From positions 186,001 through 250,000 of the forward strand of contig JAMYGW020000009.1 of the NCBI GenBank assembly GCA_025617375.2: 64,000 nucleotides of DNA, read 5' to 3'. Of this stretch, positions 17,889-47,053 are shown piece after piece. A program made the translations under genes and the position numbers. Below the pieces are notes generated by a model. It was not told the origin of the DNA and did no database searches. It saw nothing but the letters and a program-made list of their open reading frames with translations. Numbering within the stretch: position 1 is the first letter of the stretch; each line of letters begins with the position of its first letter. This DNA is from Acarospora socialis. Its lineage: Eukaryota > Ascomycota > Lecanoromycetes > Acarosporales > Acarosporaceae.

Positions 17889-17933
17889 CTTCACAGGACT
17901 CCCTGACGGACCTAGGTGATTTCAATAAGTTTT

Positions 17934-18107
17934 TGTTGGAATTAGGAGGCTCTTTAGGAGTTCAACCCTATCCGGCCTAGTGTTGGAATCTTCCATGTCA
18001 CATGATACACTTAGTCACCACACACAAATGTTATTCTTTGTGTATTCTAGTCTTCTAGATAATTAAGACACCTAATATCAAGCAATAAAAACATTTCAAT
18101 TTCAACA
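17934..18107 (+). repeat. 5' LTR of the Copia element
   Basis: 174 bp, TG...CA, equal in length to the 3' LTR. It still contains several GG and CC dinucleotides and one CpG (near 17967) that are mutated in the 3' copy, so the left edge is less damaged. Confidence 0.92.
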
Positions 18108-20764
18108 GATTATGAGCTTGACTTTTTGTCTTATCTAGAATGTTTTCTTGTCTTCAATTGACCTCACTGTTGTCATTTTGACAGCATCTTTTCTCATTTC
18201 AATAGTCTATCTGAATACTTCCTCAAACAATTCTTTTGTTGCTTCAATATTCTTGAACAATGTTCTTCTTTTTTGTCTTTTTTGATAATCTATGCATTTT
18301 GATGTTCATTCTGCAGAAATGATTCACATAATCATGACTTCTTTGAACAGCACTTTCAACTTTTCTTATCTTGCTGACACTGATAACTATGTCTTATAAA
18401 CTATCAATGTCAAGTTTGTTCTTATGAACAAAAATCTATGAACTATTGTTTCTAACACTTTCTCTGAATCTATCATCATATCTGAAGTGATCAACAATCA
18501 GAACTTAAAGTTCTTGCTGAAATACATTATCTGAAGTAGAAAAAATGACAAAGCATGTGTTATTATAGCTTTCTTTTGTCAAAATAATTTTAAAAACTTC
18601 ATTTAAGATCTATCTGCTCATCAGATGTGATTAAAACTAAAGAAGTTGTATGAGATTTAAGAATTTAATGTTAGATATCTCACATTCACTATGCTTCTTG
18701 ATCATCATTATGACACTTTTAAGTTCATTGAGAATTATGTTGATCAGCTTAAAACTTCATCACAACATTTAAAAAAGATGAATTTTATCTTTCTAAACTG
18801 AATTATACTCATGATTCTTCTTAACAATCTGAGATCTACTTTCAACATCTTTGTCACAGTTAAATGTCAATTTATTTGAGTTGTTACTTCTATTTTTGAT
18901 ACTCTTGTCACTGAACTCATTGATAAGACTAAAATGAAGAATAATAAGATCTCAGTGATCATGATCTTTTGAAACAAAAACTTAAACTTAATTTTTAGAT
19001 CAAACTTCAAATCAATGTTGTTGCTTCTTTGCACTCACTGTAAAAAGCCTGATCATGAGAAGCATAACTGTTTTCTCAAATATTCTCATAAAAAGAAGAA
19101 ATTTAATATAACTAAGTTTGCTAAACAAAAGAGTAAGAACAAAGACAAAGTGATTAAGTTATTCATTTCATTCAAGTTTAATAATAACAATATCACAATT
19201 CTTAACTTTATGACTCACATTGATGAACTTCATTCTGATATTCATGTTGCTGAACTTTATTCTGAAGTTCATGTTTCTGAGTTTCATTTTGAAGTTCACA
19301 ATGTTGTTGAGCTTCATTTTTATATTCATGTCATTGAATCTTATATCATAAACATATAAACTGTTGACACTGCAATCTCTGATCATTTGTGTTCAATATG
19401 TGAGTTTTTTATTATTTATAAGTTTATTGATAGATTTCTTCTTACAACTAATGAAGTGATTAAGATCATAAAAAAGAATCAAATTTCTCTATATTTAATC
19501 TGTTCTGATGAAAACATATAAAAGATCATTTTTAATAACATTATGCACTTTCTTATCATCTCTGCAAATCTCATTTTCAATATTTGTATGTGAGCTGAAG
19601 ACATCACATTCAATATGAAGAATTGCATTTTATGTTATAATGATAAAATTATTGAATATACATCTGAAGTTGATGATTTATTTTGATTACAACTTAATGA
19701 TATATCTCAGTCTCATGTCTTTGTGACTAATAAAGAATTCAAGATATCTTTTAAAATGTGACATTGTTGATTAGATCACTTAAATTATATCAATATTAAG
19801 TGATTAATTAAGATCATCAATGATATTGATCTTAAGAATCTTTCTAAACATCAAAATATCTGTAAGTTATGCATTAAGATTAGACAGACATGTCATTTCT
19901 ACAATGTTCTCATTGAGTAAGTAACTCAATCACTAGATCTTATTCATTTGAACATCATTGAATCTATTACACTCACTGCTTATAACAGTTCAAAGTGATT
20001 TGTTATCTTCACTGACAACTTTACTAAATTTATGTGAATATTTCTCATAAAGTTCAAGATCAAAACAGTCAAGCATATTAAGAACTTCATCACTTTGATG
20101 AAAACAGATCATTTTAATTATTCTTTAAAATATCTTCACACTAATCTTAAATGCAAATATCTTGTTCTGAAGAACTGATTTGTTGTTAATAATATTACAT
20201 GAAAATTTACTATGTTTTACTCATCTGAAGAAAACAGCATTTCTGAGTGACTGAATTATATTATTTGTGAGTTCATTAAAACTATACTCAAAGACTCTAA
20301 TCTGAAGTCTTATCTCTGATTAAAAGTCATTTGAACTGTGATTTATTTAAAGAATTAATCTTTTACTTGTGCACTTAATATAATGTTCTATGAAGCATGA
20401 ACAGACAATGTTTCTAATTTCTTAAGTCTTTACATCTTCAGTACTACTGCTTGAGCATATATTTTTAAGAAACAACATTAGCAAAAAGTCAAATTTAACA
20501 ATTACAGTCTTAAATATCACTATTTAGACATGAACAGTAGCTCTATCTATCATGTTTAAAACTTAGAATCAGAATGTGTTCTTATTACTCATAACTGTTT
20601 TGTAAAAGAAGATATTAACATTTATGAAAACATGATTAACATAGAGATCTACAGCAAGAAAAAGACATTTAATACTGTTGATCTTTTTTTCAATTTTTCA
20701 TTTTCATTCACATCTTTGTTGTTGCAATCTTCTTTTTCTTCAAAAGAAATTTTCAGATCAGTTA
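18108..20764 (+). pseudogene. Copia gag and integrase remnants
   Basis: Decayed coding region with frequent TGA stops. The gag zinc knuckle is preserved at about 19030-19075 as CTHCKKPDHEKHNC (CX2CX4HX4C). Downstream, at about 19760-20300, integrase features are readable: a zinc-binding HHCC region (HLN...CKLCIK), the core with FVIFTDNFTKF, and later YIICEFIKTILKDSNL. Order and motifs are those of Ty1/Copia Gag-Pol. The frame is broken at 20764 by the first Gypsy insertion and resumes at 26984. Confidence 0.8.
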
Positions 20765-21116
20765 TGTTACAGTTAAGTTAAAACAAGTTTAGAACAAACT
20801 GATGTGTATGCATAAGAAGTGTATATTCAAGAAATGTTTAGACAGCAGTTATATGACATCTCAATATGCTTGATGATGAGCTTGATGAGCAAGCTCAACA
20901 GATTGCATAAACAAGCTGTCTCAACAGACTTAATGGTGAGATCAGTGAGCAGACTCAGTATATAGTCACAATCATTTTTCTTATGAAAAGAATTGTGTTC
21001 AACTTAAATAACAATCTAAGAGTTAAAGTCCAGAACCATTTCAGATCAGTTATTATATTAATAAGTACAAACTTTTAGTTCTACATACTTAAGAAATCTC
21101 AGATTAGAATGTTACA
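20765..21116 (+). repeat. 5' LTR of Gypsy copy A
   Basis: 352 bp, TGTTAC...GTTACA, directly repeated at 26632-26983. Differences between the two copies are transitions. Confidence 0.9.
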
Positions 21117-24100
21117 CTTTGAACATTCTTACAATATAATGAGTATGATGTCTGACACACAGAAGAACATCTCAATCTTGTTTTTGAGACAAGCTCAAGT
21201 GAATTCATCTTTATCATTTACTTTGAGTAAGATGACAACACAATCAGCAATGCTTACTCAGATAATACAACTATCTGTGAATGCATTGAAGATTTAAATA
21301 CTCAATATCTTTGATGAAGAATGAGAAAAGCTGCAAGTCTTTGTGACTAAGCTCAATCTGTATATTGAATTCAATCAATTAAAGTTTCAAATCAATCAAG
21401 AAAAGATGTTGTTTGCAACAATCTATCTAGTGAACACAGTCTTTGACTGAGTTGATCTCAGACTGCACAAATTTCTAAAGAAGAAGTATAAAGAATGCAA
21501 TACAGACACAGAGTCTATGTTCAATAACTATGCACAGTTCAAGAAAGAATTAAAAAAAGTCTTCAAAGTGATCAATGAAGAAAGAGCAGCAGAGAAATGA
21601 GTTTATATCTTGTGACAGAGTGAATCAGTGATAGTATACATCACAGAGTTTCAGTGATTAGCAACACTTATCAGATAAAATAATGAAGCACTCATCTATC
21701 AGTACTATTGTGAGTTGAGAAAGTTCATCAAAGATGAAATAGCTCAAGCAGAACAATCAGACAATCTTTAGAGAATGATTGATCTGAGTATCAACATTGA
21801 TAGTTGTTAATGAGAATGACAGATGAAACAAAAAGAATATTGAATGTCATCTATGATAGAAGATCAAGAAGAAAGCTTCTGATCATGAATGAAGTGATAT
21901 GTTTTATTAATAAGATATAGAAGAACAAACTTTATAAATCTCAATATAATCAAGAAGCATCATCAGAAGTCATGAAAGACTAAATAAGTGAAGTTTGAAT
22001 GTCAGATGAAGTGATTCACTAAGTCTCAAATAATATCACAAAATAAAATACAAATGTATTACAACTACAGAAAACCTGAACACCTGATTTAAGAATGCAA
22101 CAGATCTCAGATGAAAAGAAAAAATGTTGCAGTGATAGTTAAGAAGAATACACATATAGTGCACAACACTCTCAGCTGAACAGTCTGTTACAATGACATG
22201 TGTAGAGTACACATGAGCACAAAAGATAAAATCAGATAGTATCTTCAGAAGCTGCACAAGAATGTGAAGAACTGATATGATGTGAGAAGTCAATCAATCT
22301 ACAAAAAAGAATTAGCTATTCTTACAAGAGAAGATATCAAGAAAAAAGTTCTTGATGCTGAGATCAAAGAGACTGATGCTTGAGAAACTCAGATAGAAAA
22401 AAACTACAGTGATAGCATCTGACAAGCACTGAATTTGAATGTGAATCAGAAAGAAATCAATGAATAAAAAGTCAACATAAGACTGAAGACAGCATATCAG
22501 CACTCTGAGAATCAATGTTAAGCATTAAAAGAAGAAAAGCTTCAGTTTAAGAAGCAAGAACTTGAGCAAGAGATGCAAGCTTGAAAACAGAAAGTGCAAT
22601 GCAAAAGTGCAAAAGAACAAAAGACATATGATCAACTAGAAGAGCTGATGATAGCTGTTAAAGATGAATGTTTCAACAGTGATGATGTAGTACTGTCAAA
22701 ATCTCTTGTATGAAAAACAAAAAGTCACAAGATTGAAATATACTTACTCAAAGAATATACAATGCAGAATGAAAACAGATGAATCTTCAGTGAAGAATAC
22801 ATATCATCTGAATTTCTGCAAAGAATAAGAGTCTTTGAGAGTCAGTTGCAGATGAAGTACAATCAGTATGAACTCTGACTACACTCAGAAAGACACATTA
22901 AACAGTATAGTCTAAAGTATGTGAATTTTATGATCAGAAGAAAATCAAGATAATTTCAGAAACTTTGAAGATGAGCTGAATGATTAAGTGAGTCAAAAAA
23001 TGAAAAGCTTTCTCAACAAGACTAGAGAATAAGAAGCTAGTGACATTTCAAAGACAAAATAATGATCATTGAATATGAATCAAGATTACAATCAATGAAC
23101 ACTACATCAACACATTAGTGAATTTCAAAGCAAACAGTAATATCATGAATCAGAAAACAGTCAATATGTTAGAACTAGAAACACAGTGAGTGCACTGTTC
23201 ATTCAACATACAAATGACAAATGAAGTCATCAAAAGAATCAACAAGAAAATCTGTGTGAAAGTCTCAATTCTTGAAAATTCACAAGAAATAACATTTGAT
23301 GTTATGAGATCAATTGAATATGATGCAGTGCTAGAAATGCCCTGATTGTGTGAAAGAAATTTAAGAATCAATTAAATTACAAAAGAAATATGCACAATCA
23401 AGAACACATACAAGATTCTCAAACAATCAGAAATGAGCTTATCAGAGTATAAGTCATGAAATCATGAAATACTGCTATTGAATGAAAAACAATCTAAGTG
23501 AATGTCTTTATACTCAATGAGCAAGAATCAACTCAAGAAAGTTAAAACTTATCTTGACAAGAATCTTAAGAAAGAATTCATAAAATCATCAAAATCACTG
23601 ACAGAATACTCAATTCTGTTTGTATCAAAGAAGAATGACAAGAAACAACTATGTGTTGATTATAGATAACTCAACAAGATAACTCATCAAAATAATTATT
23701 CTCTATCATTAATAGAAGAGTTGCAGAATCAATTAAACAAGACTAAGTGATTCATGAACTTAGATCTTAAGAACATCTATTACTGAGTTAGAATGAAAGA
23801 AGGTGAAGAGTGAAAAACAACATTTTGAACAAGATATAAACACTATGAGTACACTGTTATGTCATTTGAGCTGAAAAATATCTCAGTTATCTTTCAGAGA
23901 TTGATCAATGACATGTTGAGAGAATATCTCAATAATTTTGTGATCACATATCTCAACAATATTCTGATATATTCAGAAGATCTTGAAGAGCACTGCAAAC
24001 ATATGCAAAAGATATTAGCAAAGCTCAACAAGAAAGCATTGTATGTGAAAAAGTCAAAAAGTAGACTTAAGATCAAGAAAGTTAAGTTTTTAAACTATGT

Positions 24101-26100
24101 GATTTGATCTGAACAGATTGAGAAAGATTCAAAGAAGATAAAAGTAGTCAGAAACTGATCAACACTGAAATGAATCAAGAAAGTACAAGTCTTTCTAGAA
24201 TTGACAAACTATTATTGAAAATTCATATCAAACTATGCAAGAATTGCAGAATCACTGACACATTTAACATGAAAAAGCAAAGAATAACATTGAAATAAAG
24301 AACAGAAGAATGTGTTTCATGTATTAAAGAAAAGTTTTAGTGAAATGACACATCTGAGAATACTCAATTCAGCATGTGAGAAGACACTGAAAATTGATGC
24401 TTCAGATTTCACAATAAACATGTACTTATATTAGATCAAGAAAGAGCAGCAGAGACTCATAACATATCAATTTAGAAAGTTATCAGAATTCAAGAAAAGA
24501 TATAAGACTCATGACAAGAAACTTCTGATGATAGTGAAAGTGCTACAAGATTGAAGATTTTATCTTGCAGAAACAAGCAAGTCAATTTAGATCTACACAG
24601 ATCATAAGAATCTGAGAAACTTCACAATAATAAAGCAACTTAATCAACAACAGATTTATTGAACAGAGCAGTTGACAGATTATGAATTTCAGATTCATTA
24701 CAAGAAGAATAATGAGAATAATGAAGTGAATATCTTGAACAGACAACTCAATCATGAAGATGTACAGATGATACACACAGAAATTTTAAGCAAAAATAAC
24801 AACAGAATTCTTACAAAGAACTTAGCAGCAACATATAAGATGAAGCAAGCTTTCTTGATGAACAAAGAACTCATTGAAATGTGTCACTACAGCAGAACTG
24901 AAGAACATCTAGAAGTTAAATGCACAAAAGATCTAGTGTGAAGAAGATGCAACATTAGTGATTTTAGAAATTGAATCATCAAGATGATTGCTGTGTGTGA
25001 TTCATGTCAAAGAAACAAAGTCAATTAAGATAGACAATACAACAAAGTAACACAACTAGACACATCAGATGCATCATGAAAGTCAGTTATCATGAACTTC
25101 ATTATGAAACTATCACTGTCAAAGAACTCAGCATGAGAGATGAAATTCAACAGTATATTGATCATAGTGAACAGATTGATCAAGTATATGATGTTCATTT
25201 CATTTAAAGAAATCACAACAGCATCAGTATTGATCTACATCATACTGCAAGAATTAATTAGTAATCATGAACTATTAAAAGAGTTTATTATCAACAGAGA
25301 CAAGCTGTTTACAAGCAAGTTTTGAGAAATGCTTACAGCAAAACTCAAAATAAAGCACAAGATGTTAACAGCATATCACTCACAGACATATAAGTAAAGC
25401 AAGTGAATGAATCAGATAATAAAAACATACTTAAAACACTATGTCAACAAGAATCAGAACAACTGAGTATGACTGTTGTTAATGACACAGTTTGCATACA
25501 ACAACACAAAAAATGAAATCACAGAAGAAACATCTTTCTATATGAACTATGACTACAATCTGAAAATATGACAAGATTTCAAAGAATACAGATCACAAAG
25601 TCAAAAAGTAATTTTGAATATCACACAGATGAAAAAACTGCATTAAGATCTAACAAAATGAATTGAACAGCAGACAGAACAAACAACAGAGACAAAATCA
25701 TTTGAAGAAGAAGAAAAAATATATTTAAGAATGAACAACATATGAACAAAGAAAAAAAGCAAGAAGCTAGAGAACAAGAGCATTGAATCATTCAAGATTA
25801 TATGAAACATCAAAGAGTTAAGCTATGAGCTAGACTTACTTAAGAAAATGAAAATACACTCAGTATTTCATGCATTCATGTTACAGCATTGTGATCAGTT
25901 CATATCACTTCAAATTAATGAAATGTCTGTTGAACTCAACAAAGAATATGAAGTCAAGAACATTTTAGAAAAGAGAATGATTAGTGAGAAAGTTCACTAT
26001 CTCATAAAATGAAAAGATTATAATATCTCAGAGAATATCTGAAAATTCAGAGAGAATCTCAAGAACTGTGTGAGAACACTTTAATGTTTTGAAAAAAAAA
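21117..26100 (+). pseudogene. Gypsy A gag-pol with C-terminal chromodomain, inactivated
   Basis: Gag begins near 21135 (MSMMSDTQKN). A zinc-knuckle remnant is visible at about 22050-22100 (YRKPEHLIQEC). Reverse transcriptase lies around 23560-24110, with FMNLDLKNIYY and the catalytic box degraded to YLNNILIYS; YLDD to YLNN fits CpG-to-CpA mutation. RNase H is around 24380-24700 and integrase around 24780-25700. A chromodomain (EYEVKNILEKRM, then VHYLIK and KDYNISENI) is at about 25945-26060. Dozens of TGA stops disrupt the frame. Gln codons are plentiful while Gly, Pro, Trp and CGN Arg are almost absent. Confidence 0.85.
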
Positions 26101-26142
26101 GTTGATATTAGCTCAGAAGAATGATGATATTGAGTCAACAAG

Positions 26143-26556
26143 TTATGACATTGTTTGAGAATCTTCATTCTCAGTCTCATCATTATCACTATTAAGTTTG
26201 ACAGCAAGACAGTCAGTCTTCTGTGAAGCACAGTAGTTCATTTGATTCAGTGTTTTCTGAAGATGTACAACTTTTGAGAAAAGTGCAGTAAGCTCAGCAT
26301 GCTTGACTGCTAATTTGCTGTTTGCTTTACTTATTTTCTTTTGAAGCAAAAGACAAGTTCTATTGAGAGACTCTCACAATATATTGACACATGAATGATC
26401 ATGACAAGTACACTTATCACATTTTGATCAAGATTTCATTACAAAACAATTGATGTCACAACAGACACAATAGTCACAAGAAAACAGAGTAAGCACATCA
26501 TCAATCTGAATTTTCTTTGTGATTCTTAGACAATTGGAATTTTTGAAAAGCATCAT
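26143..26556 (-). pseudogene. Antisense Cys-rich ORF at the 3' end of Gypsy A
   Basis: Opposite to gag-pol, between the chromodomain and the 3' LTR, a minus-strand frame reads about 138 codons with two TGA stops. It has a Cys-rich centre (CDYCVCCDINC, then CDKCTCHDHSC), a coiled-coil and an acidic tail ending NDETENEDSQTMS. Gypsy copy B carries the same frame at 40315-40722 with the same C-terminus. This suggests a genuine antisense gene of the family rather than a shadow. Function is unknown. Confidence 0.55.
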
Positions 26557-26631
26557 CACTGACAACAAACAATGTGAATATTCTCACTTATATAAACTTT
26601 AGAGAACTAGCACCTGAGAAGAGAAGAATAG

Positions 26632-26983
26632 TGTTATGATCAAGTCAGAACAAACTTAGAGTGAACTGATGTGTACACATGAAAAGCATATATTCAAGAG
26701 ATGTTTAGACAGCAGTCATGTGACATCTTGACATGCTCAACAGCAAGCTTGATGAGCAAGCTCAACAGATTGCATGAGCAAGCTATCTCAACAGACTCAA
26801 CAATGAGATCAGTGAGCAGACTCAGTATATAGTCACAATCATTTTTCTTATGAAAAGAATCATGTTCAACTTAAATAACAATCTAAGAGTTAAAGTTCAG
26901 AACTGTTTCAGACCAGTCATTATATTAATAAGCACAAACTCTTAGCTTTACATACTTGAGAAATCTCAGGTTAGAATGTTACA
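26632..26983 (+). repeat. 3' LTR of Gypsy copy A
   Basis: 352 bp, direct copy of 20765-21116, followed at once by the target duplication AGTTA. Confidence 0.9.
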
Positions 26984-27643
26984 AGTTACATCACTGTTAC
27001 AATTTTCACTGTTACAATATTTTTAAAATCTTTGAAACATCAATCTGAATAATTCTCATTCATTGAACACATCTTAATTTAATATGCTCAGCACAGAAAA
27101 TCAAGACTTAACATCATTCATACAGTATTTAGTTGTTGAAGCTCACTTATCTTTCTCATCAACATCATTTAACATTACAGTTAACTATTCTCTTCTTCAT
27201 TTCAAATTCTTATCTTTGTTCTTTTCATCTCAGAATTCTCAACTTTCTGAATTCTTTGATGACTTTGATGTACACTTTTTGTATACATATGTCACAATCT
27301 CTCTGAACAACATCATTGAATCTTTTATTTATAAACAAGTCATTGAGTTGTCACTGTGCAAAAAGTGAAAGCAAGTAATGAAGAACAAAATACACTCTTT
27401 GAAGAAAAACAACACATGAAAAATGATTTCTGTGTCATTGAATCAGTATGTTTTTCAAGAATGCTGAGTGTATAAGATCAAGTGTGATGCTTATAATCAA
27501 GTTAGTCACTATAAGACTTATTGAATAGTCAAGAACTACAAACAGCAATTTGATATTGACTATAATCAAATCTTTGTGTTTATTGTCAAGTCACAAATCT
27601 ACAAAGCTCTCTTCATCTTAATCATTCATTTTGATCTAGAAAC
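26984..27643 (+). pseudogene. Copia pol segment (integrase C-terminus to start of RT)
   Basis: The Copia frame resumes after the Gypsy A target duplication. It contains a Ser/Thr-rich linker (27084-27368) and the first RT residues, ending ALFILIIHFDLET. It breaks at the hAT target site (27636-27643). The continuation at 39081 picks up RT in the same frame. Confidence 0.65.
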
Positions 27644-28006
27644 TAAAGTGACTATTAGATTGAGTTAATTCTGATTGACTCAAATCAAGCTTTTGAGTTG
27701 AGTCAGATCAAGTTGAGTTTTCAAGTTTAAAGATTTAAGTTAAATTTAATTTGAAAGTCTGATTCAGTTCAGACATTTAATTCAGATTTTAATGATTATG
27801 ATTATGATTAATAAGTGAACTCATGAGCTAGAGTTCAAGAATTTAGATTGAAAGAGTGTGATACATGAGTGTTATAAGTGAGCATTATATTGTGAACAAA
27901 GATATTGCTTTCATTTTAAGATTACTATTTATCACATCAAGAAAACAGTATTTCTGAAGTAATTCTAATCACTTTTACTTTAATTTACATCTTTTGATGC
28001 AATATT

Positions 28007-29178
28007 TCAGTTATGCATATATCTCTTGATGAGAATCATGTTCTTTTGCTGAATAATAATTCATTTTGTGTAAATTGCAGCAAAATTAACATCTAAACAA
28101 GTTAGTTTATAGTTTTTTAACAGTGTGTTCAACATACTTTCAAAAAAAACAACAACATATACTTCTGCAGCTTCTTGCAGACTCTTTATGACTGAGACTT
28201 GAAATCAAAAGCTCTTGTTGTAATATTAAATCTTTATTAAATAGTTCTGAATGATTTCTTAACACAGTTGCTGAAAGAAAAGTTTTTTCATTAAGAAATT
28301 GATTGATCTCTGATAGCAATGTATTTCATGAAGAGTGACAGCTATAGAGTAGAATTGAGTGTTAGAATTGAGCATTAAAATTGAGTGTTAAAATTAAGAG
28401 TTAAAATTGAGCAATAGAATTGAGCAATATCATGAGCATCATCATTAAGCACTGAAACAAAGCATCAAGATAGAGCATTAAAACTGAGCATTGAAACTGA
28501 GCAATAAAATTGAGTGATAGAATTGATCAATATCATGAGCACTGAAACAAAGCACAAAACTGAGCTTCAAAATTGAGCATTAAAATATAGCATCAAAACT
28601 GAACATCAAAACTGAGCATCAAAATTGAGCATCAAATCTGAACATCAAAACTGAGCAACAAAATAAAGCACTGAAACTGAGCATCAAGATTGAGTATTGA
28701 AACAAAGCATCAAAACAAAACATCAAAATGAAGCATTAAAACTGAGTATCAAAACTGAGCAACAAAACAAAGCACTGAAACTGAGCATCAAGATTGAGCA
28801 TCAAAATAAAGCATCAAAACAAAGCACTGAAATGAAGCATCAAAACAAAGCATTAAAACTGAGCATCAAAATTGAGTAATAAAATTAAACAATAAAATTA
28901 AACTTACTGTCTGACTTTCAGCAGTGAACTGATTTAGATTTTACAGTGACTGTCTGAGTTTCTTCATCTTTATTTATATTTGCAGCAGTATTCATCTCAA
29001 TCTTTACTCATATCTTAGCAGTATTCTCTTTCATATTTTCTTCACTCTTTTCTTTTTTCTTTTCTTCACCACAGATTTTCTCACTTTCACACATTTTTTC
29101 AGCAGTTGATGTCTTCTCTTCACTCAGTACTGTCTTTATAGTGCTGTGTTTTGTTGAAGATTTTTTGCTACATCTCAT
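28007..29178 (-). pseudogene. Histone H3-like protein with long tail and expanded loop 1, carried by the hAT
   Basis: Three exons, 29178-28908, 28341-28138 and 28092-28007, splice with consistent phases into 187 codons; intron 2 (45 bp) has a CTAAC branch point. There are six in-frame stops. The join of exons 1 and 2 reads TVTLHEI..YQRSINFLMKKL, matching H3 [31 protein letters not shown] is mirrored by FFQQLC-stop-EI. FQVSVIKSLQEAAEVY matches helix 2 (FQSSAVMALQEACEAY). FFENVNFAAIYTK-stop and IIIQQKNMILIKRYMH match [29 protein letters not shown]. Loop 1 is about seven residues longer than in H3. The tail of about 90 residues is Lys/Glu-rich and unlike canonical H3. The lost residues are at Arg-like positions, as CpG mutation predicts. 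It is an H3-fold protein, perhaps CENP-A-like, now dead in this copy. Confidence 0.8.
28342..28907. repeat. 13-bp repeat array forming intron 1 of the H3-like gene
   Basis: Almost the whole 566-bp intron consists of degenerate 13-bp units of the form CTGAGCATCAAAA on the + strand. It has GT and AG borders for the minus-strand gene (GTAAGT donor at 28907, TATAG acceptor at 28342). An inverted array lies at about 29640-30370. Confidence 0.7.
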
Positions 29179-29509
29179 GATGTAAGATAATAATTTGATG
29201 AAGTTCTAAGATTAAGTTAATAGAAGTGTTATAAGAGATTAATATAAAGATAAAAATATCTTTAAGTAACTACAAGTTTTAATGTATGCAGAAGACTGAG
29301 TTGATGAGAAAGTTATAGTTTGAAGTTCATTGTTAAGAGATATTACTGAGATGTTAGAGAGACTGAGATGTTATGCTAGTAAATATCACATTTACTTATG
29401 ATATGTGTGTCAATGTTATGATGTTAGTAAACATCATATTCACTCATGATATGTGCATCAATATTATGAGTAAATATATCAATACATCTATCTCTAACAC
29501 TCAGTTCTT

Positions 29510-30390
29510 ATCTTCACTTTCACTGCTCAGTCTCTATGTTCAATTTCTATGCTCAGTCTCTATGCTCAGTTTCTATACTCAGTTTCTATACTCAGTTTCT
29601 ATGTTCAGTCTTTACACTCAGTATCTACATTCAGTAGATCTATTATTTCACTTTGATGCTTCATTTTATTGCTTTATTTTAATACTTTGTTTCAGTACTT
29701 TGTTCTGATGCTTAGTTTCAGTACTTTGTTTTGATGCTCAATTTATCACTCATTTTTATCACTCAGTTTTGATGTTTCATCTCAGTGCTTCATTTCATTA
29801 CTCAGTTTTGATGCTTAATTTTGATGCTTCATTCTGATTTTTAGTTTTGATGCTTTGTTTTGATGCTCAATATATTGCTCACTTTTATCACTTCATTTTG
29901 ATATTTCATTTTGTTACTCAGTTTTGATGCTCAATTTTGATGTTTTGTTCTGATTCTTAGTTTTAATGCTTTATTTTGATGCTCAGTTTCAGTGCTTTGT
30001 GATGATGCTCAGTTTTGATACTTTATTTTATTACTCAATTTTAATACTCAATTTTAATACTTTGCTCTGATGTTTTGTTCTGATGCTTTGTCTTGATGCT
30101 TTATTTTGATACTTTATTTCAGTGCTTCATTTCAGTACTTCATTTCAATACTTAATTTTGATACTTCATTTTGATGTTTCATTCTGATGCTTTGTCTTGA
30201 TGCTTTGTTTTAATGCTTTGTTTTAATGCTTCATTTTGATGCTTCATTTCAATGCTCAATTTTGATGCTTTGTTTTGATGTTTTGTTCTGATATTTTGTG
30301 ATAATGCTTAATTTTGATGCTTGATTTTGTTGCTCATTCTATCACTCAATAATAACACTCATTTATAGTTCTCAAAGTTAACTTTACATT
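29510..30390. repeat. Inverted counterpart 13-bp repeat array
   Basis: It begins with about ten CTCAGTTTCTATG-like units (29510-29640) and continues with TTTTGATGCTCAG-like units, the reverse complement of the 28342-28907 array. It lies between the start of the H3-like gene (-) and the start of a cargo gene (+). The period is about 13 bp with many substitutions. Whether it is intronic or a divergent promoter region cannot be told. Confidence 0.65.
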
Positions 30391-30403
30391 TTAAACTCTC
30401 ACA

Positions 30404-31560
30404 ATGACAAAATTTTCAGATACTAAGCTTTCACTTCTCTTTATTAAACAACTTGTCTCTATTTTATCAACAATCTTAAAAAATATCTTAAATGTTGACT
30501 CTGATTGTTGTGATTATTCTTACAAGTCATTATATGATTTAAAAAAGACATTTAGTGAGTACTCAAACAACTTAAAGACTGTATAAACACAGAAGAAATA
30601 TTAGAAACTTATGAAGAATGAAGATTTTAAACAAATTAAACATACAAAAACAACAAACTGCAGAGCTATAAAACAGAAGAGAGACATCATGAAAAAGTTG
30701 AAAGAATATAAAATTACAGATTCTACTGTACAGAAAATCATGAAAGAAAAAATGAAGAAAGAAGTTTTAAAGAAGTAATACAATCATGAAATATTTGATA
30801 GATTTCAAGAATTATAACACTCTATTATAATGCTTCTAACTATCTGCAGCTGTTTACTATGAAGATAAGCTTAAAACTCATTTGATGAAGCAGAAAAATC
30901 AAGCTTGAATTGATGAGAAAACTGAGAAAAAAAGATTATTTATTAATGCTTTGACTCTGAAAGAGAAGCATAAGTTTAAGAAATTACAGCAAGAAATATA
31001 CTCTATATCAGAGTTTTATAGTTTTTCTGACTTTCTTTAGAATGTTGACAAAGATATCATCATTAATGAAAAGCACAGCAATATCAATCAGCAGATTGAC
31101 AAGCATCTCACTGTTGTAATAAAACATCAAGAAAAAATCATTGATCTTACAGAAAAGCAGAAGCTACATAATGCTGAGAACTCTGATTCTGCAAAGACAA
31201 TGTATTTTTTTTATAGTGATGTTCTTAATTCTGAGCATATTGCTGATTATGATCATTCATGAGTATTATATTGCTCAGTTATAATACTTTGTACTTTTAA
31301 CAGTGACTAGATACATTCAAGAGTTCATAGTTGATCAAGAAGAAGAGAAGAAAAAGAGTGTTGTTGAAAATGCTGATAAAGCTTGTGTGATGAAGTCTGA
31401 AGATGAGAAGTTCTTAGATGATGATTCAATTAATGAGTTTGTTATTGATGCAGCAATTGCTGATGTGAAAAATAATGAAAAGAAGAAAGATGAAGCTGAG
31501 AATGATGAAGATAATGAAAGTATCACAGATAAGAACAGTAATGAGAAGAAAAGTGAGTAG
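30404..31560 (+). pseudogene. hAT cargo gene: acidic/basic coiled-coil protein of unknown function
   Basis: Three exon-like segments (about 30404-30815, 30846-31262 and 31302-31560) read as a charged protein of about 370 residues, broken by several stops. It begins MTKFSDTKLSLLFIKQL. It has Lys/Glu-rich helical stretches (MKKLKEYKITDSTVQKIMK) and ends in an acidic tail (about 31,420-31,555) rich in Asp, Glu and Lys. The putative introns contain TATAATGCT motifs like those of the transposase. I do not recognise the family. The 31302-31560 part stays open for 85 codons. Confidence 0.5.
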
Positions 31561-32019
31561 TAAAGTAATACACAGTTTTGTGATGACTAAAGCTGTAAAA
31601 TAGTAAGAGAATAATCAGAGATGTCTGACAAATTATTTATTTGTATATTCTTGATGATCAATTACCTGATTATGAATATGAATTATTAATAATAAGTTAT
31701 TTCTCTTTAAAATATTGTGTCTGATATTATCACATGACATTGTATGAAGTTGTAGTATAGAATTTTACATTAAATTATCTATTTCAATAAACAATTATTG
31801 TTAACTCAATAACATATTATGCAGAGTAGCTTTCTCATTGATTAAATATGTATAAATCATATGAGTTCTGTCTTTTACTTGTGTAAATTTTGTGATCACA
31901 TGACTACATTCATATAAAAAAAAACTTACTAAGTCTCACAATACTCTTCATATCTTACTATTGTTATACTACAACAAAACATCATCTACTCAATCAGCTT
32001 ACTCTGAGAAATCATTATC

Positions 32020-34500
32020 ATGTCTTTATACAGTTCTTTTTTCAATCAGCTGACAAGTGACTCAGAAAGTTCTTTTATGAGTGCTTTCACTGATAGAGTT
32101 TGATCATCTCAACAGATAAAATCACTTTCTTCAACTTTAACAAATGTACTCAACTCAGAGTATGTTCTTTGAATTTCTGTGATGAAGTAAGAATTTTAAG
32201 AGTGATGAGAGACAACTATATGAAGTTAAGACACAGTTATAAAAGTCAAAAAACATGTCTCAATGCTGTAAAACAGTTCAAGTTGCTCAGCAAAAGTCTG
32301 AAAGTCTTTTGCTAAAGTAGTCAGCAAATGTGATGAAAGACTTGATGTGATGTGTGTCAAGTGTCATAATATCATGAATTATTCAGCATCAAATGATAAT
32401 GAAACAACAATTATAAAACATCATCTGAAGAACAACAGTTGTCAAAATGCAAGAAAATCATTAGAAAGACAGATTTCAATCTTTGCAGCACTGAATATCA
32501 CTGTATGCTATGTTTTTCAATTATAATGCTTTAATATAATGCTCACATCTGTGCAGACAGTTCAAAAAATCATTGTCAAATCACTTAACTTTACTTCTGA
32601 AGTCTTTGATCAGCAGATTTTTCAATTTATTATAGTACTTAATTTGCTCTTTTGTGCTGTTGAGCATTTAGAGTTTTGAAAGCTCATCTGAATATGTTAT
32701 ACTGAAATTAAGATTTCAGATTGAACAAAAGTTGCATAACTTCTTAAACATCATGTTGTGAAAATTCAAAAAGAGATTTTTGCAGCACTTGAGTTGCAGA
32801 TTAAAGTCTCTATTGTACTTGATGAATAAATCAGTTTTAATTATCTTGCATTTTTAAACATCACTGCATACTTCATTGACACTAAGTAAAAGTACAAAGA
32901 GATTCTTCTAGTGTTCAGAGAGTTAAAAAATTAATATAGTGAGAAAAATTTAACTGAATATGTTCTTGAAATGTTGAAGAAGTGAAATCTGACACATTAA
33001 TTGTTAATGATTACAGCAAACAATGCTTTCAACAATTGTACTCTAAGACATTATCTCAGTCAACTTTTAAGTGTGAAAAATATAATCTGAAGTGATAAAA
33101 CTAAAATTATGAATTGCATGATATATGTTATTCAGCTTGCAGTCAATCAGCTATTTACATATTTGAAAGCTGATGTCAAAAATGATCACTCTACAACTAT
33201 ATTTGATGACAGTGAGCTACAAAAGTTTACATTTGAAAAGAACTACTTCTTTGATATCATACTGAAAAAGATCAGTAAATCTTTTGTAATGCTTTATTAT
33301 AATGCTCTATTTCAGTTCATCATTATGTTAATAATATATTGATGAAGATTTATATGCTTACTATTGCAATCATGACATCATCACAGCAACTTAAACTGTT
33401 CAAAGAATTACAGAAAACAAATTCTTGAGATATGATTGAGAATGTGAGAACTCAGTAAAACTCATTTTATAATATGCTGAACAGAGCATATAAGCTATAA
33501 ACTAAACTCTTTCAGTGAATAAAGTATCTGATTAGAACAACAAGCAGAATGAAGTTTCTCAAGTATAATACAAGAGAGTAACAGCATGTTAAGTACATAC
33601 TGCATTTTCTGAAACACTTCAAGAACTGAATAGAGATCATAAATGTTATCAGTGAGTCAACAATTCACAAGCTGTAATTTACATACAACAATCTGTTTGA
33701 TCATCTTGAAAATTAAAACAAAGCAATTGAGAAGTTTGAATTATTCTTTAATTCTGAGTTGCTGAATGCTATTGATGCATATAAAAAAAAACTGACTCAG
33801 TACTATGAAAAGATGAAAGTCAATCATGAATGGTTCTGTAATCTTGAGACAATATTAAATTCATGCAACAAGTTTGACATGTACAATGTAGACATTCTTC
33901 AATCTTCAATTCAAGCAATATATCAAGACTGACATGATTTGATACAGAAAGATGACTGAGAAAATCTATGTGTAATCTATGAACTTAAATTTCAAAAATA
34001 CTATAGCATCAACTATCAGCATCTGAAAAATGAGTTATTAGATTAAGATTTGATTATATTTGATCTTAAAGAAAAGAAGACAATAGCTATGATGAGTTGC
34101 ATAAAGAACATAAAAAAGCATCAAGATACATCTGTGAAGAAAGAACTTGCAGATTATTTGCAAAAGTCTTCAGTATTTAATGTGAATATTTCAATTCTTA
34201 AGTACTAAAAGTTGATGAAGAAGTCAAAATCAGCAATGACTCAATTTACAAAGAATATACTTGTGATTTCTGCAGCAGATGTTGATGTTGAATGTTTATT
34301 TAACATGACTTGAGATGTCATCATGTATTGTTGAAATTGACTAAATTCAGAAATCATTGAGAAAATCATGCTGATCAAATATCATAACATGTTTACATTT
34401 GTAACAGAATTAATAAAAGATCTTAAGAAGAAATCTACATTGATAATAATTATCAACAGTAATGAAGAAGAATCTTCAGCAGATAAACTAAATTGAAAAA
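32020..34500 (+). pseudogene. hAT-family transposase with BED zinc finger, inactivated
   Basis: The frame begins MSLYSSFFNQLTSDSES. A BED-type finger is at about 32340-32450 (CVKCHN, then HHLKNNSC). An intron at about 32505-32570 contains two TAATGCT motifs. The catalytic core follows, with EIFAALELQIKVSIVLDE and YLAFLNITAYFID at about 32770-32880 and MIYVIQLAVNQLF at 33118-33156. A second intron ends near 33313. The C-terminal dimerisation region at about 34250-34400 reads ISAADVDVECLFNM and EIIEKIMLIKYHNMF. These are standard hAT landmarks in order. Stops are mostly TGA. Open frame continues past 34500 as Asn/Ser-rich sequence to about 34988; the true 3' end is unclear. Confidence 0.78.
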
Positions 34501-35689
34501 TAACTGAATCTTGTACAAAGCTTTTATCAAATCAACTCTTCACTGATGATAATCTTTATAATGACAGTGATCAAGAGAACAACAACAACTTCAGACTTTT
34601 CAACAGTGATTGAGATAAAAACATTGACTTTAAACTTTACAACAGTGATTAAGATCAAAATCTAAATACTGAAGTGATACATCTGAGCATTATAAATATT
34701 ACAAATTATGCAACATCAAGACACACAATCTTCAACAACAACTATAGTCATAAGTCAATAAACATCAGTTCAGAAGAAAAGCACAGAGCTTCTTTACTGA
34801 ATATGTTATCTGCAGCAATTGATGTCTCAATTATTAACTTTATCTTTAATGACTTTACTATTATCAGTTTCATTATTCAAAACATCAGCTTCAACAACTC
34901 TGTTCAGAGCATCTTTACTGTTATTATATACACAGTCTCAAATACAACATCACATCAGTCAAGAAACAGAAATCTTCTTCATAAATAAAGCAAATAACTG
35001 TCAAAGACATCACTCTCACAGACAAAAGCACAGACACTGCACTTTAAGATCATTATTGCTTCAATACTGAGATCACATGAAACACTTGATCTTTCACATA
35101 TCAGTCACATCAGTGATTTTTTAAAGCTGAAAAAAATACATTCATTTTCATCTGAAGATAATGTTGATGTTTATAAATATAAATGACATTGATCTCAGTA
35201 AACTCTTGTCTTACATTTTTCTAAAGTATAGAGCAACATTATAAACAAAGAATCTTGTTGTTGAGCACATCATGAAATTGTTGTGAGTTTAAAACAAAAT
35301 ACATGCACAGTGTTTTTATAAATTCACAGTGATCTCATTCTTATATTTACTATCTTAATAATTTTGTCTCTTTATCACAGTCTGATCACAACTCTCATTG
35401 TTGCTGCATTCTCTAAATTAGTTCATGACTTTATACATTTCATGCTCAGTAGACTAAGTCATACACATATATGTAGATATACTTTCATACTCTGCAATTC
35501 TGAGAAGTTCATTGTTGTTGAGTTGTTTATAATGAACAACAATTACATTCTGAATCAACAGTATTGTATATACAAAGAGAAAAATACACTTATGAAAGTA
35601 ACTTTGAGTAGAGTATCAGACTTAAACTTGCATACACATCAACAACAATGATATTAAAGATCTTTGATCTTCACTCAGAACATCATAGT

Positions 35690-37640
35690 TCAGTCTAGTT
35701 TTACATCTTTATTACTCTTATCATTATCATCATCATCATGATCTTTCTTCTTCTTCTTCTCATCATCATTCTGTATATTTTCTTTCATTTCTAAAACTTT
35801 AATTTTTTCATCAGCATCATCTGCAACAGACAAAATCTGCTTTGTTGATAATTGAATTTTAAATTCTGTCTTAATCTACAGATATATTGAATTAGCAAGA
35901 ACTTTATAGATGATTGTAAAAGCATTATAATTGAGCAATATAAACATATCTAATCATTGTGTACATCAATCTTTTGACTCTTTAACTTCAAAGATGTGAT
36001 CTGTGAAAAGTATTATTTAGTGAGAGTTCTGATACTAAAACAGTACAGAATTAATATATCTTGTTTTCTTTTAAGACTGTCTTCTTGATGTTTGCTAATG
36101 CAATTTTGCTGAGCTTGAGAAAGATGCATTCATCATTAATATTTTTATTCAGCACAATTTACTCAGAAATAACTACTGTAGTTATCTTTTCATTCTCACT
36201 CAACACTACTTTCACTTCTGCATTTTCATCTACAGATGCATTGAAAATCACTGATAACTGATATCTAAAAATAAAACAGCATCAGTTGCTGTCTTAAGAA
36301 GTGTTATAAATGAGTATTAAAAATAAAATACATACTGATGAGCTTTATTATCTGTTATGTGTTCTGAATCAAGTACAATACTATTGAAAACTTGCATAAC
36401 AAGATCTGAATTCTCATCTTTCACAGCAGTAAACTCTTCATAGTCACAGAACTGAATGATTCACTCTTGATGCTTAATTACTGTACATAAAGATTCTGTT
36501 CAGCAATCTTGAATATTTTGATGAACTTTTGCAATTTAATCACATCAGCACAATCTAAAATTCAAACAAATAAGACATACTTCTTCATCAAAGACTGCAG
36601 AAGAACTCTTTACTTCAAGAAGCTTATGCAGAGTTTGAGTTTCTTCAGCTTATATGATGAAGTTATTGTGCTTAACAGTGTTATTTTTCTTCTTTTGCTG
36701 AGTTATTGCATTCTGATTCATGAGAAAGATTGTTATATATTAAGTTAGAGATTGTGTAAAACTAAAACAGTAAATTAATACTCATCATGTTCACTCTCTG
36801 CATATCTTTGAGTCACAATTTTCTCTTTAATTTTAACTGCATATTTTGTCTTTTGAACAGCATCTTTGAGCTTTTTATAGTCTGAATCATGCTTAAGATT
36901 CTGATTCATTCTATTCAGTGCTTTACTGTCTTTGTTGTGAGTCTTTTTAATTTCATCATCTCTGAAGACATTGACTACTGAAAATTGTGATAGTGTGACT
37001 CTCTAAGTTGTACTAAACAGTGAAGAACTTGATTCAAAAAGAGATGAAGAGCTTTTCAATTCATGAATATAATTTAGTCTCTGATTTAGTACACTCTTTG
37101 TGCATTATAATTGAGCATTATAATCATAGAAGTTATTTACAAGATTTCACAGTAAAAGAACTGCTGAGTACATCTGAAGTATTTTTGAGAAGTACAGCAT
37201 TGAATATTGATTTAAAATAATTAATAGATGCTCTCATTTCTTCTCATTGATCAGCAAAGTTTTCTTTCTTCAGGTGTGCAGTAATGTCTGAGATAAATAT
37301 ATTGATTTTGTTGATTTGTTTCTTTTTCTTCTTCTTGTTGAGTTGAGATGATATGAGTATATCAGTTTTGTCAATTTGTTTCTTTTTCTTCTTCTTGTCA
37401 GATTGAGATGATGAGTTTAGTGTATCAATAAAGTGAGTTCTTTTATGAATAAGTGTGTTCAATGTTGTGTTAAATGAGTTTGATGCTTGCAATTTTACTA
37501 CATTTACAGAAATAATCTTAACATTCTTTCTGCACTGTTCTGATGATGTATTTTTAGAATAAAAGTCAGTATCTTATCTCTTCATAACTAACTTCACTTA
37601 CATAATAACTGATTGAGCTCTTTAAGATATATTTAAGCAA
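35690..37640 (-). pseudogene. hAT cargo region: charged protein gene(s) of unknown function
   Basis: Minus-strand segments read as one or two decayed genes. The 5' part (about 37640-37100) includes LSDQEIEESYQILLKYILKS, then a Lys-rich stretch duplicated about 60 bp apart (DKKKKKKQIDK and NKKKKKKQINK), then ASINYFKSIFNAVLLKNTSD. Downstream parts near 36970-36790 (Lys/Asp-rich), 36440-36050 and 35900-35690 (ending in a Lys/Asp run) continue on the same strand. They are separated by intron-like pieces with GAGCATTATAAT motifs. No family is recognised and exon borders are uncertain. Confidence 0.35.
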
Positions 37641-38074
37641 TATCTGATAACTTTCTTCAATCTCTTGATCTGATAGTGTTATATTGTTGTGTTATAAAAG
37701 AGACATAAGTACATTGATGACTGTATGATAGTTTGAAAAAAGAATTTATAAAAAACTGAAGATTCAGAAAGAAAAGATCAGAGATTTTGTGAAAGTGAAA
37801 AAGTAAACTTAATTAAGCACTCATAGTACAGTTTGTTTACATGAATGTTGTTATTTGTTGTGAGTGAATCTGTAGATAACTTCAAAACAAACTATGCAAT
37901 TATTCAGAAATTTTATCTCATGATCATTCTATCTTAAACAACTACAAATATATTTGATTCTAAGACACATAACATACTGTTTGTAAAGTGTAGTAGAAGA
38001 AATCATATTAGTATCAATTTCATTTTCTAATATAGACATTATAAGAGTAAAGAAACTGACATTCAAGTTATGTA

Positions 38075-38275
38075 TTTAGCATTATGACATCAAAATGAAA
38101 ACTAAAGTCAAGAAAGAAAGTCAAGCTGACAACAGAGATGACTGAAGAAATTAAGAAGAAATCTTTAATGAGAACTGTCTTTAAAAAAAAAATGAAAATA
38201 TATAATGCAGAAATGACATCATAACTAGAGAACAAAGAAGCTGCAGTCAAATGTAGCATCTTTTAAGAAGATGAC
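38075..38275 (+). pseudogene. hAT cargo: short basic ORF
   Basis: A plus-strand frame with three stops encodes a strongly basic peptide (KLKSRKKVKLTTEMTEEIKK, then LMRTVFKKKMKIYNAEM). A stretch with TATAATGCTC (about 38365) follows. It may be an exon of a larger gene running to about 38.8 kb. No recognisable domain. Confidence 0.3.
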
Positions 38276-39080
38276 TGAATTCTTGATAATTATTCTTCAT
38301 TCAAATCAATTGCTATGAGAAAAGAGTCTAGTGAGTTACATAGTTTCTACAATCATATTATATTATAATGCTCAATTTTAACACTCTCTAACAAGATTTT
38401 ACTATGCAGCAGTGATAATGTTAACAAGAGCTACACTCTTTCAAGATTAATCAAGCAGCATTCTCTCTTCTGATTGAAGAAATAATCACTTAATATAATT
38501 AGAACTTAAAGTGACATCAATCAGCAATCACAAGTCTGCAGAAGATAAGTGAAGTATTTCTTTGTACTTATTTTGAAAGTATAAATTCTCATATATCAAA
38601 ATCTCTCTTCTATGACTTATATGTTATATAGTTGCAAAACTACATAAGAAAAAGGACCTGATTATGACAGCAGAGTTGTGAAAGACAAAGATGATGTTTG
38701 ATACTTTTCATCTCTACTAAAAAAATGAACTTCTTACTAGTTAATGTACTTTAGCTCTGTATTAAATATGTGGTGTAATGAACAGCTTATAATGCTCACA
38801 TATAATGCTCACAAAGCATGCTGCAAACACATAGTCAAACAAAAAGTGCTTTGTAAAACTATCATCAAATAGTTTTGCATTAGTAACATCTATCAATCAA
38901 ACTCTGCTTAGTTATCATGTGCTAATTAATTTTAATCTAGTTTAGACTGTCAAGAAAAACTCAACTCAGCTCTGTTTGAAACTCAGTTCTGCTCAGAATT
39001 AAGTCAGATTGCAAAGTTAAGCTCAATGAGTTGAATCAGGTTTTAAAATCTGAGCTCAACTTAACTCAGTGGTCATTCTA

Positions 39081-39891
39081 CTAGAGACTGAGTAAATAAA
39101 TATGACAATTACATTTTTTTATAATTCTATTGATCAGATCATCTATATGAAGCTTTTTCATGAATATAAACTTTTTAATATAATTGTCTTGCTCAATAAA
39201 ATCTTATATGATCTAAAGCAGACATCTTATCTTTGATATAAGACTCTACACAATCATTTTATCTTGTTTAATTTTCATCATCTTAATTCTGATCATAGTG
39301 TCTTCTTTTAAATCAATGACAATGTTATCATCACTGTCTACATCAACAATCTTCTTCTTATAGAAAAAAATAAATCAGTCATTCAAGACATCAAAATACA
39401 TCTTATTAACATCTTTAAGATGTCAGATTTTGACTCTGTGTTTTATTATCTAAATATAAAGATTGAGTGTAGTTATTCTGAACACACTATTCATCTTACT
39501 TAGATGATTTACATCAATAAGATTCTTAAGACATTTCAACAGTCATAGACAGTTTCTATTGACATATTTATGAATTCTGATGTAGTACTCATGAAGAAGT
39601 TCATTACTTAGACTGACATCATTACTATTTGACACTATTAAAAGACAGTAAAATCACTAATGTACATTATGTTACAGATACATTCTGACATCATCTTCAT
39701 CATCTTTATCATCAATCAGTTTGATCAAAACTCAAATATCTCACATTACAATGCTGTCAAGCAAGTCTTCAAATATCTTGCTGACACTACAAACTTAAGT
39801 GTCATTTATGACATCATTAATGCAGATCTCATTGACTATATTAATGCTGATTAAAATGAATGTTGCAATACTCAAAAGTTCACTGATACTT
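39081..39891 (+). pseudogene. Copia reverse transcriptase / RNase H segment
   Basis: The frame resumes after the hA T excision point: YMKLFHEYKLFNIIVLLNKI then YDLKQTSYLWYKTL and YINNLLLIEKNKS (the Copia YVDDLLL box), then LADTTNLSVIYD. It stops at 39891 at the second Gypsy insertion. Motif spacing is normal for Copia RT. Confidence 0.8.
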
Positions 39892-40252
39892 TGTAATATT
39901 TTAATCTGAGCTTTCTTGAGTATGTAGAACTAAGAGTTTGTGCTTATTGATATAACAGCTGGTCTGAAATGGTTCTGGTCTTTAACTCTTAGATAATTAT
40001 TTAAGTTGAACATGATTATTTTCATAAGAAAAACAATTCTACTATATAGAATATGCTTAATGTTTCTGTGTTGAGCACTCTTGATGTCTCAACATCTCAA
40101 TGTTGAAAGATTGAGTTCTCAGCTTATCTGCTCACTGTTGAGTCATTGCATCATTACATGACTGCTGTTCAGCAGTTTCTCTTGTACATACTTTGAATAA
40201 ACTTCTGATCACAGATTTGTGAGTTCTTTTCTTTTTAAATATAATTGTAACA
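39892..40252 (-). repeat. LTR of Gypsy copy B (3' in element orientation)
   Basis: 361 bp. Reverse complement is closely related to the Gypsy A LTR. A purine tract in element orientation (AGAGAAAGAATAA) abuts it at 40253. Confidence 0.88.
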
Positions 40253-45710: not shown

Positions 45711-46071
45711 TGTAATGTTCTAATCTGAGCTTTCTCAAGTATGTAGAACTAAAAGTTTGTGCTTATTAATATAACAGCTGATCTGAAATGGTTCTGATCT
45801 TTAACTCTTAGATGATTATTTAAGTTGAACATAATTGTTTTCATAAAAGAAACAACTCTACTATATAGAATGTGCTTGATGTCTCTGCATTGAGTACTCT
45901 TAATGTTTTGATGTCTCAATGTCAAGAGATTGAGCTTTCAGCTCATTTACTCATCATTGAGCTGTTACATTGTTATGTGACTGCTGCTCAGCAGTTTTTC
46001 TTGTACACACTCTGAGTGAACTTCTGATCACAGACTCACAAGTTTTTTTCTTTCTAGATATGATCATAACA
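45711..46071 (-). repeat. LTR of Gypsy copy B (5' in element orientation)
   Basis: 361 bp, direct copy of 39892-40252, flanked on the right by CACTT. Confidence 0.88.
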
Positions 46072-47053
46072 CACTTATTTCTTTTTTCTCTTCAAAGATT
46101 CTATTAATTGATGTTTTAAATGTCAATAGATTGTTGTTTTGTTGTTCATCAAGTCTGAATACATGACTGAAATGCAAGTGACAAAGAAAGTCATATAACT
46201 TCATCATTTTCTTACAGAAATTGACTTTCTTGATGACAGTAATTCTATTGTCATTTGTGCTGATAATTATAATGTTATGAATTTAGCTCAGAATTCTGAG
46301 TTTTATGTCTGCATCAAGTACATCAATATTCAGTATCATTTTGTTCATGAGATTGTCAATTGCAGTCTCATCAATCTTGAGTTTGTTTCTATATCTAAAC
46401 AAGCAGTTAACAGACTCATTAAGTCTTTACTTATTGTTAAGTTTCATCACTTTCTTAATCAGCTAGATGTTCTAACTGTGATGACTTTATAAATCAAATC
46501 AATGAGACATCAATTAATTGCAATTTAAATAGTTGACTTACTTACTCATGAAGTGTGACAGATCATAGTCTACATCATAGCAATTAAGTCAACTTCTTAA
46601 ATTGTTAACTGATTTTTTGATCACACATTTAAGTTTTAATCTTGTCATTGCTTTCTTTGTTGACTAGAACTTATGTTGACAATGTTATAAATTGAATTGA
46701 TGAAGTATTCATTAGTGATGATCAGAATAACTGACTTAACAAGCTCATGAAGTATGACAAATCATAGTTTACATCATAAGATTGTCAAGTCAGTTCTTTT
46801 CAATTATTCATTCTTTTTGTTGCACATTTGAGTTCTAATCTCATCATCACTTCATTTTTTGCATCTTCACTACATCTTTTCTTTTCATCTTGTTCTTGCT
46901 TTCTCATCTCACTGTTGTCTCAATCTTTTTTATGACTTCTTCATCATTTTGCTGTCAGATTTACTTCTTAATAAGATTGAAGAATTTATATTAACTAGTG
47001 AATGAGTATCTAGATTGTCTAGAATGTCTAGATTGATTAGATTTGAGAAGAAG
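46072..47053 (+). pseudogene. Copia RNase H C-terminus and 3' untranslated region
   Basis: After Gypsy B the Copia frame resumes near 46100. It reads to a stop at 46492 with CADNYNVMNLAQNSEFYVC and LEFVSISKQAVNRLIKSLLI, the usual end of Copia RNase H. 46493-47053 is non-coding and includes two related segments (about 46540-46580 and 46745-46785) with CATGAAGTRTGACARATCATAG. Confidence 0.8.

Follow-up and report, generated by a model that had tools for sequence, protein, structure and literature searches.

The window (the whole stretch of 64,000 nucleotides that was analysed, on contig C9 of the 31.1-Mb, 38-contig genome searched) contains an 11.4-kb hAT element, a member of what we call family A. 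A gene with the fold of histone H3 (A1) is located near its left end, and a second, divergent H3-like gene (A2) is probably present at its right end. The features are listed below in order of position.

27636..27643, no strand: left target-site duplication, with 7 of 8 bases the same as in the right one
27644..39080, no strand: hAT element of family A, 11,437 bp, delimited by inverted termini, 8-bp target duplications and collinear copies
28007..28092, minus strand: A1 exon 3, 86 nt, with loop 2, alpha-3 and the stop codon (gene model)
28093..28137, minus strand: second A1 intron, of 45 nt and in phase 1, immediately behind FE (GTATGT...ACTAAC...TAG)
28138..28341, minus strand: A1 exon 2, 204 nt, with alpha-N, alpha-1, a long loop 1 and alpha-2 (profile alignment)
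28342..28907, minus strand: first A1 intron, made up largely of a 13-bp minisatellite (gene model and repeat analysis)
28908..29178, minus strand: A1 exon 1, 271 nt, from the ∼90-residue Lys/Glu-rich tail to the H3 tail-fold junction (donor A/GTAAGT)
32308..34388, plus strand: hAT transposase, stretches conserved with a second family (tblastn, 35–51% identity in three pieces, best E 6.5e-27)
∼34143–34379, plus strand: hAT dimerisation domain (PF05699) in the transposase (Pfam)
38392..38578, plus strand: fold exon of the probable gene A2, with about the standard loop-1 length (PF00125 below cut-off in four copies)
38579..38631, plus strand: intron of the probable gene A2, of 53 nt and in phase 1, immediately behind FE (alignment)
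38632..38700, plus strand: final exon of the probable gene A2, resembling alpha-3, with an undefined end (by eye)
39081..39088, no strand: right target-site duplication, compared with the left 8 bp

Three features expected of the hAT superfamily were found, namely terminal inverted repeats, target duplications and the dimerisation domain. The left terminal inverted repeat starts with TAAAGTGAC, and the right end mirrors it, reading inward on the minus strand as TAGAATGACC. In each of the 11 copies compared (window included) the left end begins at the equivalent base, with unrelated flanks, and three further copies, ∼90% identical, are collinear with the window element over 9 kb. Of the eight family A copies tested, six have target duplications that agree at 7 or all 8 bases: at 8 of 8 in three copies by script and in one more by eye, and at 7 of 8 in the window copy and a copy on C5, while the two failing copies agreed at 3 and 1 of 8. 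The dimerisation domain scored above its cut-off at seven places in the genome, each 5–11 kb from a family A H3 match; it reached 31.7 bits in the family A copy L050 and 17.1 bits in the window copy, below the cut-off of 21.4. A Pfam search of all six frames of 30400–38901 gave this weak dimerisation match only, the rest being counted as chance. Two further stretches within the element look coding, at ∼31330–31562 (plus strand, with an acidic C-terminus, by eye) and ∼35700–37700 (minus strand), and neither matched a Pfam family.

The G+C content of the element is 28.4%, and no CpG occurs between window positions 17973 and 47380 (29.4 kb). Within 17931–47300 a single CpG was found (at 17973), compared with ∼620 expected from base content, while both sides of the block have gene-like G+C and many CpGs. 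A RIP-like decay has cleared the block of all its CpGs. Neighbouring repeats include an LTR element at 20765–26984, with ends of ∼355 bp, lying inside another repeat; L039 shows the latter uninterrupted (17930–20764 joined to 26984–27524). A similar LTR element is located in the other orientation at ∼39891–46085.

The sequence-only reading had described A1 as three minus-strand exons that splice in phase over 561 nt. That model proved exact (29178–28007), and the 561-nt CDS is kept in 13 of 14 copies (window included), the remaining one having a 2-nt deletion; exons 2 and 3 are of equal length in 13 of the 15 copies examined. The first donor reads GTAAGTT in 6 of 13 copies, and in the other seven GTAAGC or GTAAAC stands at the same place, where the length of exon 1 was set by position. 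Internal stops are present in each of the 13 copies with a 561-nt CDS. The window copy has six, at codons 57, 87, 118, 129, 136 and 169; those that could be aligned in the sequence-only reading had been ascribed to Arg-like positions and to loss of CpG. The former holds, by our reading of the alignment, for codons 118, 136 and 169 (R72, R83 and R116 of H3), but not for codon 87 (at Y41), codon 57 (in the tail) or codon 129 (in the loop insertion). The latter agrees with codons 57, 118, 136 and 169, which alternate among the 13 copies between TGA/TAA and CAG/CAA, the pattern expected from the decay of CGN codons, whereas codons 87 and 129 show TGA and TAA only. Among the 192 transition-polymorphic CDS sites, 58 alternate between TG and CA, as after loss of a CpG; the remaining sites have a different context, so the decay was not confined to CpG. 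The A1 copies have decayed by C-to-T mutation (RIP).

Arrays of the 13-bp minisatellite lie on either side of the A1 gene start, at 28353–28899 and 29652–30348, in opposite orientation and with a length that is very variable among copies. A hairpin or regulatory role is possible.

The assignment of A1 to the H3 fold was upheld by a profile search, in which the conceptual translation, with stops read through, matched the Pfam histone family at 30.5 bits (cut-off 26.4); on the unedited genome sequence the window copy scored 24.1 bits, below the cut-off. A profile built from seven A1 copies matched H3 chains in the PDB with a best E value of 4.8e-21, by which a chance open reading frame was rejected. 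In total, 172 distinct PDB sequences were matched at 1e-5 or better, and the best 60 of the 172 were all named H3 or H3-like. Together with the location of the copies within hAT termini, this significant match sustains the proposal that an H3 variant is carried by the hAT. That a host gene had inserted on its own into a single hAT copy was rejected, the gene occupying the same site in collinear copies.

As had been noted from the sequence, the stretch between REI and FQ comprises 16 residues in A1 compared with 9 in H3, i.e. an insertion of seven residues in loop 1, and the tail of ∼90 residues, rich in Lys and Glu, is unlike that of H3 and lacks ARTKQTARKS. In most copies the first ten residues are M-x-x-S-K-K-S-S-T-K, which may, in our reading, be aligned with MARTKQTARK, with lysines at positions 4 and 9 and the R-K-S context gone. 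The H3K9 methyltransferases require that context. Among the other genes considered here, loop 1 measures 13 residues in the host CENP-A and in gene D of the second hAT family, and is of about H3 length in A2 and in genes B and C (see below).

A2 is regarded as a probable gene. PF00125 gave E values of 0.015, 0.0024, 0.019 and 3.7e-4 in four copies, below the cut-off in all four, and in L050 the unrelated LXG family outscored it. Counted over 12 A1 loci, each matching at least 1300 query bases, an A2 match was located 9.6–10.3 kb from A1 in at least eight, these counts being lower bounds; the distance was 22–28 kb in two, and two had no listed A2 match.

A second hAT family was found as well; on contig C1, one element of 12.1 kb (500154–512226), flanked by 8 bp that are identical at all eight positions, carries two H3-like genes, B and D, facing outward. 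Its transposase is related to that of the window element in the three stretches listed above, and its dimerisation domain scored 18.5 bits, below the cut-off. PF00125 matched gene B at 43.8 bits and gene D at 25.9 bits, just below the cut-off. Seven of 10 B loci (each with at least 850 matched bases) have a D partner 8–15 kb away, and one further locus has one at 32 kb. In gene D (L054–L056) the end of the fold exon and alpha-2 resemble a histone in either of two frames, and the expected frame is not regained through any canonical splice site. Gene C, a single copy on contig C13, matched PF00125 at 36.5 bits; a terminus-like sequence, detected with a relaxed pattern, lies ∼1.6 kb from it.

The sequence-only reading was unaware of any hAT reported to carry a histone gene. 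Two reports in Dothideomycetes contradict this, that of Manning et al. 2013 (PMC3538342) and that of Dhillon et al. 2019 (PMC6710886); among the papers listed in a literature search, these alone showed a hAT-borne H3, the others being judged by title and abstract opening. In Pyrenophora tritici-repentis, a gene termed H3L and another open reading frame are described between the inverted termini of a hAT of ∼5.6 kb, present in nearly identical and mostly intact copies with one H3L each; H3L has tail insertions, groups with neither H3 nor CenH3, and has reported ESTs (PMC3538342). The two coding-looking stretches of the window element could be the counterpart of the ‘central ORF’ in that element. 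In Pseudocercospora fijiensis and five related species, an H3-carrying, RIP-dead hAT of ∼9.5 kb is reported to contain one or two H3-like genes, the two differing by 16 residues; its authors report no introns, propose capture of a transcript, and describe a CpA-biased RIP (PMC6710886).

As in both published cases, an H3-like gene is located between the termini in many copies. The window element shares with that of Pyrenophora the hAT dimerisation domain, the inverted termini and the internal H3-like gene and, to judge from the published description, is set apart from it by its length of 11.4 kb, its RIP-dead state, its probable two H3-like genes and the seven-residue loop insertion (PMC3538342). 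With that of P. fijiensis it shares RIP death, an 8-bp target duplication and the presence of one H3-like gene or of two that differ by an insertion (of 16 residues there); unlike that element as described, it has introns and lies in a CpG-free block (PMC6710886). Capture of an intronless transcript does not account for A1, which has two introns. As far as the published descriptions go, the present hAT fits the known kind, and what is added are the introns, the pairing of H3-like genes in two families and an intron shared among transposon-borne (TE) genes. Viral histones are likewise encoded outside the host genome, but by viruses and not by transposons (as reviewed in PMC9145170).

The shared intron is in phase 1 directly after FE and is common to A1, A2, B and C, although in C its acceptor is not canonical. 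It is absent from the host H3 and host CENP-A genes, both of which read through FE. The introns of host H3 are located elsewhere, one of them a single codon from A1 intron 1, while host CENP-A has no intron near that position. A tree was built from 25 rows, of which 17 are TE genes (4 of the 13 A1 copies among them) and 6 come from 11 matches in a large protein set. One of its branches (91/98), which recurs in 88% of bootstrap trees, has all TE rows on the same side. Two caveats apply: A2 and B have long branches that come together (a warning of the tool), and RIP could make TE residues converge. Host CENP-A was placed with the database rows, apart from the TE rows.

RIP makes no transversions, and for this reason transversions alone were counted. 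Variable columns of this kind number 2 of 290 in the fold (both singletons, 15 copies) versus 30 of 784 in the flanks (p = 0.0044) and 12 of 271 in the A1 tail (p = 0.0054), with p = 0.045 for the fold against the 3′ flank alone, all of these p-values being rough because the copies share ancestry. Indel events in 12 copies relative to the window numbered 34 in the minisatellite intron, one in exons 2–3, one in exon 1, and three and nine in the two flanks; outside the minisatellite intron, exons and flanks have much the same rate. Together with the shared intron and the tree, these counts argue modestly for selection on the histone fold before RIP.

We favour, with a probability of roughly 0.55, the reading that one or more H3-variant genes have belonged to this hAT family for a long time, having been derived from host H3, selected, amplified and killed by RIP. 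The TE H3 genes would have originated from an intron-containing H3 gene of the host, selection on the fold would have kept them while the element split into families, and amplification would have been followed by the RIP that killed the copies. The fold, the place within the element, the structure of the copies, their death by RIP and the shared intron are established, and from these we infer a single origin of the genes and selection on them. A long-resident, selected gene is modestly favoured over a recent passenger capture on the strength of the shared intron, the TE-only side of the tree, the fewer transversions in the fold and the H3-like pairs in two families. The retained CDS length, the strong PDB match to H3, the location of H3-like genes near or toward the ends of two hATs with diverged transposases, and the ESTs reported for H3L (PMC3538342) were also counted in its favour. 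Against it were counted the long branches and RIP-biased residues in the tree, the modest constraint test with its p of 0.045 for the 3′ flank, the similar indel rates of exons and flanks, the lack of a recognised intact TE copy, the sub-threshold Pfam scores of A2 and the higher LXG score in L050, the intron misfit of gene D, and the intronless-transcript capture inferred for other species (PMC6710886).

Possible, though clearly less probable, is that a host H3 gene was captured by transduplication and carried without function until RIP killed it, which is the view taken of Pseudocercospora (Dhillon et al. 2019, PMC6710886). That precedent and the RIP-dead state of the copies agree with passenger cargo, in which case the copies are mere relics. 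Against cargo we count that the fold varies less by transversion than the flanks or tail, that the gene can still be identified as H3 across families with ∼35% transposase identity, and that H3-like genes occur in pairs in two families. Several independent captures of host H3 by different hAT families, with the common features coming from the donor gene, would suit the great divergence of the families and the near coincidence of A1 intron 1 with a host H3 intron; we consider them improbable, given the FE intron found in A1, A2, B and C and in neither host gene, and the grouping of TE rows in the tree. A CenH3 (CENP-A) type histone, which had been suggested from the sequence and could give the element centromere-like chromatin, is very improbable and disfavoured by the PDB matches and the tree, since only the long loop 1 of A1 and D fits, while the best 60 of 172 PDB matches are H3 or H3-like by name, the A1 intron 1 has no neighbour in host CENP-A, and the tree sets the TE genes apart from host CENP-A and host H3 alike.

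From the sequence alone it had been proposed that the variant could mark the element's own chromatin. For a histone gene long resident in the element, the most likely use to a DNA transposon would be a change of the chromatin over itself. Speculatively, the H3 variant may have been expressed from the element, joined host histones in nucleosomes and altered chromatin in the element's favour, for example through a tail without the usual R-K-S at lysine 9. The loss of the R-K-S context, like the changes in loop and tail, would fit a variant that is badly handled by host silencing. A more elaborate version, which we regard as rather doubtful, is that an ancient hAT lineage has two H3 variants of its own, with genes read outward at opposite sides of the element. 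The asymmetric pairing of their products would form element-specific nucleosomes that, with tails lacking the R-K-S context at lysine 9, escape H3K9 methylation, i.e. a transposon-coded counter-heterochromatin histone. In our reading of the alignment, the position of H3 D123 is N in A1, B and C and an acid in the partners D (D) and A2 (E), so that the products might pair asymmetrically in the H3–H3 bundle. The H3-bearing hATs have so far been read as accidental cargo of a housekeeping gene; the TE-specific intron, the occurrence of gene pairs in two hAT families that have diverged, and the lower variation of the fold suggest instead that the histone is the element's own equipment. This raises the question of whether a DNA transposon uses its own histone against heterochromatin or RIP.

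PF00125 gave 22 matches in the genome, seven of them stop-free, and no intact TE H3 was recognised among the 22, identities being given for three: L002 and L006, which are the host CENP-A gene, and L003, which we take to be an NF-YC-type protein. The other four stop-free matches are L005, one at C12:1149210 and two on C3. The relatives found in a large protein set (11 and 10 matches) are H3-type proteins with no hint of a hAT origin. On a 19-kb contig, a protein of 130 residues (P0018) has an H3 fold, the motif FKNVNL and a loop 1 of 17 residues; it has NVNL as in A1 and might be a relative.
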